Assembly (NCBI RefSeq): GCF_028368935.1
Contig: NZ_JAQNDK010000001.1
Span: 2,790,001-2,854,000, forward strand
DNA from: Sorangium aterium
Lineage (GTDB): Bacteria; Myxococcota_A; Polyangia; Polyangiales; Polyangiaceae
Length of the DNA stretch: 64,000 bases
Reading direction: 5' to 3'
Shown here: piece by piece, positions 48,495-51,097 of the stretch
Numbering within the stretch: the first letter of the stretch is position 1
Layout of the letters: every line of letters starts with the position of its first letter
Program-made: the position numbers and the translations under genes
Notes under the pieces: model-generated
Told to the model about the DNA's origin: nothing
What the model saw: the letters and a program-made list of their open reading frames with translations, nothing else
Databases searched by the model: none

Positions 48495-50960
48495 TCAGCG
48501 GCGCCCCTGGACGACCCGCCCGCCCGTCTTGCCGAGCGCGTACGAGAACCCGAGCTCCAGCGTGGAGCGGGTGACGATCGCCCCGAGATCGAGCCCCTGC
48601 TCCACCATGAGCCGCGCCGTCTCGGGCGCGATCCCGACGAGCACAACCTCGGCCCCGAGCAGCCCGGCGGCGCGCGCCGCCTGAGCGAGGTGGTTCGCCG
48701 CGCTCGCGTCGACCACCGCCATGCCGGTGACGTCGATGATCACGACGCGCGCCTGGTGCTCGGAGATCTCCTTCAGCATCGCCTCGATGAAGCGGCCGGA
48801 GCGGTGCGTGTCCAGCGCGCCCACGATCGGCATGACGAGGACGCCGCGCGCGATCGGCACCACCGGGCTCGACATCGCGGCGATCGTCTCGAGGAGCGCC
48901 TCCTGGCGGCTGCTCAGCGACTCGAGCGCCCTCGTCCGCTCCTTGATCCGCGACAAGAGCCGCGCGTTCTCGATGGCGACGGCGGCCACCGCGGCCACGC
49001 GCTCGATGAGCGCCAGGTCGGTCGCCGAGCACGCGTCGGGCTGCGGGCTGGCCAGGACGAGGACCCCGAGGACCGCCTCGCGGGAGAGCAGCGGCACGCC
49101 GACCAGCGTGCGCGCGCCGCTCCGGCGCGCCTCGGCGACGTCGCGGAAGCGCTGGTGCTCGCTCGACGCGGTGTCGATGACGAGCGAGCTGCACGAGCGC
49201 ATCACCCGGCCCACCAGCGAGTCGTCCGTGACGGGCGCGCGCTCGTCGTCGACGAGGCTCTCGCGCTGGGCCATGCCGATCACCAGGAACTCGAGCGCGC
49301 GCTCGCGCCCCCCCGCGCCCAGCCTGCGGTTCGCGATCCTGCGGGCGGAGCTCAAGGCGAGGTGATCCGAGAGGGCGCTCGAGAAGGGCGTGCGCTCGAG
49401 GGTCACGAGGTCGACCCCCGTGTCGATGCAGCGCGACGCCGGCAGATCCGCGAGGGCCTCCGGGACGCCGCGCGTGGCCATCTCGTAGAGCGCCTGCACG
49501 CCGCGGTACCCCATGTCGTACTCGCGCTGCACGATCGCCGCGTGGATCACGCCGTCCTGGAGCATCGCGACCGTCGAGGTGACGAGATCGAAGGCGACCA
49601 CCTTGAGATCGCCGGCTCGCCCGAGCCGCATCGAGGCAAGCCCCAGGCTGGGGCCGTTCTCGCTGCACACCCCCAGGGCGCCGGCGAGGCCGGGGTTCGA
49701 CCGCACCACGTCGACGGCGAGCGCGATCGCGCTCTCCACATTGAACAGGTTCTCCGAGAGCGACGCCACGCGGACCGACGAGCCGGCGATCGCCTCGCGG
49801 AGCCCCTCGATGCGCCCCTGGGCGTTCGGCACGGCGAAGGACTCCGCCTGGACGGTGATCTCGCCTCCCTGCGGCATGAGCCGCAGCATCGCCTCGCCCG
49901 CGATCCTCCCGGCGGCCCGGTTGTCGGTCCCGACGTAGAGCAACGACCGGCTGCCTGGGGCGGCCGGCGTGTCGATCGTGATGACCGGGATACCCGCCGC
50001 CATCGCGCGGTCGATGGCCGGCTCGAGCGCCACGGGGTCGATGGGCGCGATCGCGATCCCGTCCACCCGCCGGCGGATCCCTTCCTCGAGGAGCGCCTCC
50101 TGAGCCGCGGCGGCGGCGGACATGACGCTCCTGAACTCGACCCCGACCCGGAGATCGCGCCCCGCCGCCAGCGCGCCGTCCCGCAGGTTGTTCCAGTACG
50201 CCGTCAACGGCCGGCGGGGAGCCTTGTAGACGCGGATCATCGGCTGGCCTCGCGCGCCGCCCGCGTCGTGGGATCCGCGCCATCCATCGGCGACGCGCCC
50301 CTCGCCCCCGGCATCCTCCAGGATGACGAGGTCGATCGCGCTCCAGCGCGGGCCGGTCTGCACGCTCCGGATCCCGTCCGCGAGCGTCTCGATGAGCTGG
50401 AGGAGATCGACCGACTCGGCGACGGAGCTCAGCACCTCCTCGAGCAGGCGCAGCTCCTGGGCGCTCTGCGCCTTCTCCTTGAAGAGGCCGCGCCGCTCGA
50501 GCACGACGCCCACGCTCACCGCGATCGACTCCACGAGCGCGCGCCACGGGCCCGAGAGCGGCGCCGCGTCCGGCTGCTCCAGGGCGAGGTAAGCGCCAGG
50601 CGCGCCGAACATGGGCACCGGTACGACGTGGACGTGGACGCCGTCGAGCGGCCAGCCAGGCGCTTCCGCGAGCTCGGGAAGGTGCGCCCGGTACCACGCG
50701 GCCGCGGGGACGAGGCACGGGCCGTGCGCCGCCTCGGGCGCCGCGGCGGGGCCGAACGGAGCCGATTCGCTGAGCACCCCGCCGTCGGACGGCATGTTCC
50801 CCTGGCCCGCCAGGAGGCCGTCGAGCCCGACGATCGCTCTGTAGGAGAGTCGTCGGCCTGTGCGAATCAGCAGGCTCCCGCGCCGCGCGCCGGGGAGGCC
50901 CTCCATGGCTCGTCGCACGAGGTCGTGGAGGGTCGAGAAAACGTCCAGTCCGGTGGTCAT
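48495..50960 (-). CDS. Multi-domain regulator: GAF, periplasmic-binding-protein-like, GAF, STAS
   Basis: An 821-aa protein without a signal peptide. Residues 5-158 resemble a GAF domain, and a coiled-coil linker follows (160-200). Residues about 240-520 are a sugar-binding type-I periplasmic-binding domain (VDGIAIAPIDPVALEPAIDRAMAAGIPVITID, YVGTDNRAAGRIAG, VVAFDLVTSTVAMLQDGVIHAAIVQ). Residues 540-675 are a second GAF (LVGVPLLSREAVLGVLVLASP). Residues 690-815 are an RsbR/RsbS-type STAS domain (VVIIDVTGMAVVDASAANHLAQAARAAGLLGAEVVLVGI). Ser753 aligns with the phosphorylated Thr171 of RsbR; the second site is not Thr. A cytoplasmic sugar-binding fold feeding a STAS output is unusual. It is divergent from the tyrosine operon. 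Confidence 0.85.
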   Translation of the reverse strand: MTTGLDVFSTLHDLVRRAMEGLPGARRGSLLIRTGRRLSYRAIVGLDGLLAGQGNMPSDGGVLSESAPFGPAAAPEAAHGPCLVPAAAWYRAHLPELAEAPGWPLDGVHVHVVPVPMFGAPGAYLALEQPDAAPLSGPWRALVESIAVSVGVVLERRGLFKEKAQSAQELRLLEEVLSSVAESVDLLQLIETLADGIRSVQTGPRWSAIDLVILEDAGGEGRVADGWRGSHDAGGARGQPMIRVYKAPRRPLTAYWNNLRDGALAAGRDLRVGVEFRSVMSAAAAAQEALLEEGIRRRVDGIAIAPIDPVALEPAIDRAMAAGIPVITIDTPAAPGSRSLLYVGTDNRAAGRIAGEAMLRLMPQGGEITVQAESFAVPNAQGRIEGLREAIAGSSVRVASLSENLFNVESAIALAVDVVRSNPGLAGALGVCSENGPSLGLASMRLGRAGDLKVVAFDLVTSTVAMLQDGVIHAAIVQREYDMGYRGVQALYEMATRGVPEALADLPASRCIDTGVDLVTLERTPFSSALSDHLALSSARRIANRRLGAGGRERALEFLVIGMAQRESLVDDERAPVTDDSLVGRVMRSCSSLVIDTASSEHQRFRDVAEARRSGARTLVGVPLLSREAVLGVLVLASPQPDACSATDLALIERVAAVAAVAIENARLLSRIKERTRALESLSSRQEALLETIAAMSSPVVPIARGVLVMPIVGALDTHRSGRFIEAMLKEISEHQARVVIIDVTGMAVVDASAANHLAQAARAAGLLGAEVVLVGIAPETARLMVEQGLDLGAIVTRSTLELGFSYALGKTGGRVVQGRR

Positions 50961-51097
50961 GCAGATCCGTTCAGCCGCTCGCTCGCTCGCTGCCAAGGGC
51001 GCACGCGAGCACATGCTGGTAGCAGGCGTGAGCGGGCTCGTGCTTGTCAAGCAGAGACGATGAGACCACCGTAGGACCACGAGGAGCTCGCACCCGC

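Follow-up and report, generated by a model that had tools for sequence, protein, structure and literature searches.

The periplasmic-binding fold serves as a cytoplasmic sensor in AmiC, LacI/GalR and XylR, where the output is DNA binding or antitermination and not a STAS domain. In stressosomes, the sensor of the co-antagonist RsbRA is a non-heme globin and that of YtvA is a LOV domain, and T171 and T205 of RsbR are reported to act as phosphosites (PMC3944199). The activating signals of stressosomes are described as still unclear (PMC9237108). For Sorangium cellulosum, PMC2887360 counted 71 COG1366 proteins, the most known to its authors, and left the reason open there; the same source from 2010 reported SpoIIE phosphatases with a periplasmic-binding domain (pfam00532) and STAS domains fused to eukaryotic-like kinases. 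Here, a gene of the soil bacterium Sorangium aterium was analysed, which lies on the minus strand at 48495..50960 of a 64,000-nucleotide stretch of contig NZ_JAQNDK010000001.1 (positions 2,790,001 to 2,854,000; the window). It starts with the ATG at 50960, stops at 48495-48497 and encodes a protein of 821 residues, whose domain order is GAF, type I sugar-binding domain, GAF and RsbR-type STAS. The fold and the architecture are near certain. The best explanation, and on balance a probable one, is a soluble, cytoplasmic protein of the RsbR kind with a sugar-binding domain of the CUT2 importer kind.

The Pfam matches of the window protein were Peripla_BP_4 at residues 254-496 (E 3.6e-49), GAF families at 566-665 (best E 3e-11) and STAS at 699-791 (E 4.7e-15). 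The PDB sequence matches were the T. maritima glucose-binding protein 3c6q over 253-523 (E 2.8e-45) and the RsbR STAS domain 9o3z over 693-818 (E 7.9e-25). A structure model was built from 16 aligned sequences (the window protein, L090-L103 and L105). Its mean predicted local distance difference test score (pLDDT) of 76 and predicted template modelling score (pTM) of 0.59 leave the relative domain arrangement unfixed and not trustworthy. Within residues 261-520, 20 of the 26 ten-residue blocks reached a pLDDT of at least 85. By Foldseek and VIA-align, residues 252-542 superpose on the T. maritima glucose-binding protein (Z 34.8, root-mean-square deviation 3.0, 284 aligned residues, 36% identity to 2h3h), and the next fold matches are other sugar-binding proteins. 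GAF folds were not in the fold-search list, which was filled by one domain. The sugar-binding domain was assigned to residues 240-526 (49383..50243, minus strand) from the Peripla_BP_4 match, the PDB relatives, the superposition and the pocket residues described below. The first-pass annotation of this DNA had described a type I periplasmic-binding fold without a signal peptide. The prediction could have shown no such fold; it showed one, and the N-terminus was also as described. Export was judged by Kyte-Doolittle hydropathy in 19-residue windows. The first 60 residues are not hydrophobic and peak at 0.56, which indicates that a usual export signal is absent. Five windows of at least 1.6 (starts 618-620, 698 and 700) lie inside strands of the Pfam-matched GAF and STAS cores.

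The N-terminal 162 residues (50475..50960, minus strand) had no Pfam match. In an hhalign comparison, their profile aligned nearly end to end with 26 GAF domains gathered from the loci of this study (score 59.2, probability 96%). The controls reached at most 16.7 in 20 column shuffles and 12.4 with the reversed profile. The model places strands 28-34, 37-44, 82-85, 109-117 and 120-129 of this GAF domain between helices. At the other end, a long helix in the predicted secondary structure (residues 646-697; 48870..49025, minus strand) leads from the second GAF domain (GAF2) into the STAS domain (residues 699-812; 48525..48866, minus strand), which was delimited by Pfam, the PDB match and the alignment to RsbR. 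The helix resembles the linker helix of RsbR. A LacI/GalR transcription factor was considered and rejected, since the N-terminus is a GAF domain and no DNA-binding domain was found by Pfam (E <= 0.1). Pfam also gave no SpoIIE match in the window protein.

The architecture is not a product of chance because it is kept in 17 full-length Sorangium genes, found in all six genomes of the genus; the other 16 proteins are 45-79% identical to the window protein. Among 183 genomes of the order, the fusion was not found outside the genus. In a sample of 377 phylum genomes, which overlaps with the 183, only the window genome passes 1e-40. The fusion was found in two of 400 Chloroflexota genomes, G798 and the L105 genome G489, and ten more match over one part only. 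Five candidates per genome were scored in the order and two in the phylum sample and in Chloroflexota; four and three were scored for the fusions of a LacI-type domain to STAS discussed below, in the phylum and in Chloroflexota, respectively. Because only these few best candidates were scored, weaker fusions may be missed. A scan of GTDB contigs, of which 80 of 172 confirmed loci were considered, returned fusions at L090-L103, L104 and L105, that is, the Sorangium copies, a broken copy of strain So ce26 (L104) and a Roseiflexaceae copy of the Chloroflexota (L105). The other 64 matches listed covered either the binding-domain part only or the part from residue 655 to the STAS end only, and the open reading frames of 27 of them were 317-391 residues long. 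L105 does not contain the full first GAF domain, and the N-terminal GAF is not whole in either Chloroflexota homologue. The broken copy (L104:7001-9014) is an extra one in So ce26, in which residues of about 433-576 are deleted and the frame is changed. L088 and L089, whose long frames had pointed to fusions in two further genomes, were rejected, being ordinary exported binding proteins behind an open frame. In a tree of 51 binding domains, the 19 fusions lie on one side of a branch with support of 100/100, in a tree that is unrooted and carries a long-branch warning. The simple reading would be one origin of the fusion, common to or passed between the two phyla.

The first-pass annotation had placed the binding domain between two GAF domains. 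Both GAF domains were recovered, one by Pfam and the other by hhalign. The position, however, was probably misjudged: the model makes it likely that the sugar-binding domain sits within the beta1-beta2 hairpin of GAF2. This is proposed for three reasons. Behind the binding domain, Pfam matches GAF only from profile position 41-49 of 129-136 onwards, so that the front of the GAF domain is absent there. The model puts this absent front (helices and strand 208-214, pLDDT about 66-74) directly ahead of the binding domain, which is followed by the next GAF strand, 557-563. The N-terminal GAF of the same protein starts alike, and there a turn of two residues joins strands 28-34 and 37-44. Accordingly divided, GAF2 would consist of an N-terminal part at residues 163-217 (helices and beta1 at 208-214; 50310..50474, minus strand), taken from the modelled secondary structure, and a C-terminal part at residues 548-665 (48966..49319, minus strand), taken from the Pfam matches. 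Profile comparisons speak against the insertion. The N-terminal piece alone was unrecognised by Pfam and reached an hhalign probability of 1.3 and a score of 14.5, with shuffles up to 15.6. The joined GAF2 profile scored 101.9 versus 101.6 for the C-terminal half alone. Joining the halves barely moved the Pfam scores and lowered some of them. The values in bits, joined versus C-terminal half, were 49.5 vs 49.3 (GAF_2), 47.3 vs 47.3 (GAF) and 40.9 vs 41.8 (GAF_3) for the window protein; 30.0 vs 29.2 (GAF_2), 27.8 vs 26.0 (GAF_3) and 23.5 vs 23.5 (GAF) for the Chloroflexota copy L203; and 34.3 vs 32.1 (GAF_3), 30.8 vs 31.6 (GAF_2) and 30.4 vs 30.2 (GAF) for L105. The joined alignments extend further forward, at best to profile positions 24, 5 and 18 in the same order of proteins. 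Among 4,173 open reading frames, a hidden Markov model of the N-terminal half gave no match outside the 21 tagged as fusions.

The STAS domain had been annotated as RsbR-type, and this agrees with a phmmer search in which RsbR matched at 6.8e-26 and the best RsbS at 7.1e-13. The closest entries were the RsbR chains of 6qcm, an L. monocytogenes protein (PMC9237128). In the alignment to RsbR, the Thr171 position is Thr718 (codon 48807..48809, minus strand) and the Thr205 position, which is T209 in Listeria (PMC9237128), is Ala752 (codon 48705..48707, minus strand). Ser753, proposed earlier as the phosphorylation site, aligns with a Met of RsbR and is variable across the 19 homologues (A 8, S 6, T 2, G 1, V 1, N 1), so that this proposal was abandoned. 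Position 718 is A in 13, T in 3, S in 2 and R in 1 of the homologues. Position 752 is A in 17, namely all 17 Sorangium copies, and T in both Chloroflexota copies, which have serine or threonine at both RsbR phosphosites. Given that no Sorangium copy has the T205-type site and that most copies have lost the T171-type site, the window protein would probably transmit its signal through conformation and binding instead of through its own phosphorylation. Loss of the phosphosites is compatible with a partner switch because B. subtilis stressosomes without phosphorylation at both RsbRA T171 and RsbS S59 are reported still to signal (PMC3944199). The genome has 76 STAS matches. In a subset of 40 distinct STAS domains, two of them from RsbS-like proteins and a few of them only roughly aligned, serine or threonine occupies both RsbR sites in 9, one in 12 and neither in 19. 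The loss is thus common among the STAS domains of this genome and says little that is specific to the fusion family.

Genes for possible partners were searched in the genome, as the first-pass annotation had suggested, and RsbS-, RsbT- and RsbX-like genes are present. One cluster (L188:3215-6327) contains PAS-STAS, STAS, HATPase and small SpoIIE genes and resembles RsbR-S-T-X. Another (L191:4711-6471) contains HATPase, small SpoIIE and STAS genes and resembles RsbT-X-S. Both lie on contig C3, and the window lies on C1 of this genome of 13.47 Mb in 7 contigs. The fusion of the Chloroflexota genome G798 faces, in convergent orientation, a row of HATPase_c_2-STAS, GAF-SpoIIE and polyhydroxybutyrate (PHB)-regulator genes. 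With these genes counted in its favour, a partner-switch output of the window protein is fairly likely. The STAS domain may instead regulate a target outside the rsb system, such as a sugar ATP-binding cassette (ABC) transporter, as MlaB does MlaF, or a Ser/Thr kinase. A STAS protein is able to regulate an ABC transporter in MlaFB (PMC7367683), and the kinase fusions of S. cellulosum noted above (PMC2887360) point in the same direction. One So ce26 copy (L086) adjoins a CUT2-type operon with binding protein, ABC ATPase and permease genes, another (L084) adjoins a binding-protein gene, and 31 of the 40 STAS domains do not have serine or threonine at one or both RsbR phosphosites. However, the window STAS is closest to RsbR, well above RsbS, and kinase-STAS and SpoIIE genes are found in the vicinity of a Chloroflexota homologue. 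In addition, the window-type copies that were searched had no neighbouring importer matches, except for the binding domains of the fusions themselves. A target of this kind is therefore considered unlikely.

For the sugar pocket, the 19 fusions were aligned with 32 lone binding proteins (27 matches of the GTDB contig scan and 5 Sorangium loci) and with E. coli RbsB (rbsB of MG1655), for which PMC2630998 tabulates the pocket residues. D89, R141, D215 and Q235 of RbsB correspond to D330, R383, D458 and Q478 of the window protein, and the four are identical in all 19 fusions and all 32 lone binding proteins. F15/F16 of RbsB correspond to Y255/W256, with Y in 18 and F in 1 and with W in 17 and F in 2 of the fusions. 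F164 corresponds to F406, which is F, Y, W or H in 19 of 19. Four further residues, N258, P332, R479 and E480, are fixed in all 19 fusions, and the residues that prevail at these places in the 32 lone binding proteins are I (25), D (32), Q (26) and P (31). L459 is present in 18 of the 19; it and P332 adjoin pocket positions. Because the four polar residues are invariant, it is quite likely, as judged from the alignment, that the protein would bind a ligand of the sugar type in the cytoplasm. We read the pocket as a working one that may have an altered specificity. The best NCBIfam match was a rhizopine-binding protein, though with 68 of 420 bits and far under the cut-off; a cyclitol is therefore a possible ligand. 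Alternatively, the domain could have lost ligand binding and act as a scaffold or dimerisation module, with the GAF domains as the sensors. The changes at N13, R90 and N190 of RbsB and the fixed P332 and L459 beside pocket positions fit this. In contrast, the four polar pocket residues stayed invariant while the whole fusion proteins diverged to 42-47% identity, and so a mere scaffold is rather improbable, more so than a target outside the rsb system.

In the window, the regulator gene shares an intergenic region (50961..51097) with divergent genes of tyrosine/homogentisate catabolism. No consensus sigma-70 site was found in this region, and a promoter and terminator scan was empty. The divergent run consists of genes for fumarylacetoacetate hydrolase (FAH), a protein of glutathione S-transferase fold (maleylacetoacetate isomerase position), a glyoxalase/dioxygenase-family protein (hydroxyphenylpyruvate dioxygenase position) and a homogentisate dioxygenase-family protein. 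On the other side, a DUF1801 gene is convergent with the regulator gene. In each of the five other Sorangium genomes, the orthologue lies between the FAH and DUF1801 genes. The complete run of four pathway genes is seen beside it in three of them, and the contigs end in the other two. A regulator that locally controls these genes (fah-mai-hppD-hmgA) and senses an aromatic or organic acid instead of a sugar would be favoured by the divergent FAH neighbour in 6 of 6 genomes and by the run of four genes, but it is very improbable. Pfam found no DNA-binding domain, and the pocket has the polar character of a sugar site. No matches to homogentisate genes lie near the other paralogues or the Chloroflexota copies, and common neighbours may be passed on jointly without a functional tie. 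PADLOC gave no match, and a reading as a defence system was dropped.

The account that we favour, and that seems somewhat more probable than all else, is an RsbR-like sensor whose input would be an intracellular sugar or cyclitol and whose captured importer-type domain would be nested in a GAF domain. A sugar or cyclitol inside the cell would close the two-lobed binding domain. The closure would pull the hairpin of GAF2 that holds the inserted domain, and GAF2 would relay the pull through the long helix to the STAS domain. The STAS domain would then alter its hold on RsbS/RsbT-type partners and so give a partner-switch output. Several points count against this account. The window protein has the RbsB residue at only 4 of the 10 pocket positions, the three named asparagine and arginine positions not being kept. 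The loss of phosphosites is shared with many STAS domains of the genome, and the model does not fix how the domains are arranged. Next to the genes of tyrosine catabolism, the regulator gene has no companion on its own strand; it is not linked to rsbS or rsbT, and the 64-kb window contains no further STAS and no HATPase_c_2 match. The ligand, the partners and the output are themselves inferred. The observation of a real, unusual protein is confirmed, and its interpretation is partly supported.

Related fusions were found in the same genome. At least six proteins join a LacI-type Peripla_BP_3 domain to STAS (L190:4868-6940, L192:1410-3971, L192:4030-6417, L193:867-3044, L194:2422-4569 and L195:3704-5962). 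The strongest HATPase_c_2 match of the genome (C5:694106-694540) precedes the L190 gene. At 1e-40, matches of this type occurred in all 5 other Sorangium genomes, in 5 of 301 Chloroflexota genomes and, among 282 phylum genomes, in 1, the window's own. At least five SpoIIE phosphatases carry a LacI-type domain, three of them within 9.6 kb (L236:1939-11468; further loci L237:1143-3599 and L238:1295-3751). Two STAS matches with equal scores (G000:C1:1186-1701 and C3:1895429-1895944), each beside a binding-protein match and near two contig ends, are possibly one place assembled twice. In So ce26, the CUT2 operon (L086; G164:C1:2515462-2528739) has the fusion and a LacI-type-STAS gene, identified by Pfam, on one side, and on the far side a further full-length LacI-type-STAS sequence match. 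A remnant of 84 residues (L087:5397-5648), 81% identical to the binding protein of this So ce26 importer, adjoins the third paralogue of the window genome. A regulator gene of PHB/polyhydroxyalkanoate accumulation (L203:7191-7715 and L105:4375-4902) lies near each of the two Chloroflexota fusions, which is a hint of carbon-store control.

It is conceivable, if still somewhat doubtful, that a complete two-lobed sugar-binding protein sits in the first GAF hairpin, where its closing like a flytrap reshapes the GAF domain and, through the helix, an RsbR-type STAS domain that signals without the usual phosphosites. Together with its LacI-type STAS and SpoIIE fusions, Sorangium would then sense sugars inside the cell on the antagonist as well as the phosphatase side of its partner switches. 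The recognisable sugar-type pocket gives a directly testable ligand class for a stressosome-type sensor. If true, a natural flytrap insertion in a GAF hairpin would be a template for ligand-controlled switches. The protein also touches on the question why STAS proteins are so numerous in Sorangium.

Compared with the RsbR co-antagonists (RsbRA-D and YtvA), the window protein has the same C-terminal RsbR-type STAS domain and a long helix that comes from an N-terminal sensor. Its sensor differs from the globin of RsbRA and the LOV domain of YtvA in that it consists of GAF domains and a probably inserted sugar-binding domain. Unlike RsbR, it has Ala at the T205 position, and its gene is unlinked to rsbST. 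With the CUT2 binding proteins (T. maritima 2h3h/3c6q and E. coli RbsB), it shares the fold over the full domain and the main polar pocket residues, at four of the ten RbsB positions. The lone CUT2 proteins have about 320-390 residues and are exported, normally catching sugars outside the cell for import, whereas the window protein has 821 residues, no hydrophobic N-terminus and is fused into a regulator. The fusions fix R479-E480 and P332, where the lone proteins mostly have Q, P and D. The SpoIIE fusions of S. cellulosum reported in PMC2887360 belong to the same genus and likewise join a domain of the sugar-binding type to a partner-switch protein. Those of the window genome differ in that Peripla_BP_3 and not Peripla_BP_4 is the best match, the output is a phosphatase and not STAS, and Pfam finds no GAF domain. 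The LacI-type-STAS proteins also have a sugar-binding-type domain and STAS on one chain and also occur in Chloroflexota. They differ in that their binding domain belongs to the LacI subclass and lies close to the N-terminus and in that Pfam finds no GAF domain, and they are probably a separate joining of the parts. The first-pass annotation had proposed that a sugar-like ligand is coupled to a partner switch. The sugar-type pocket was indeed kept, but the principle of coupling binding domains to partner-switch proteins is not wholly new because the LacI-type-SpoIIE fusions are in print (PMC2887360). The further statement that no characterised protein has this domain order stands within the open-licence literature searched, where no paper on a fusion of a binding domain to STAS was found. 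The general kind is therefore known, and the GAF, sugar-binding, GAF and STAS design, not found in that literature, is a sensor variant of the RsbR-like partner-switch regulators.

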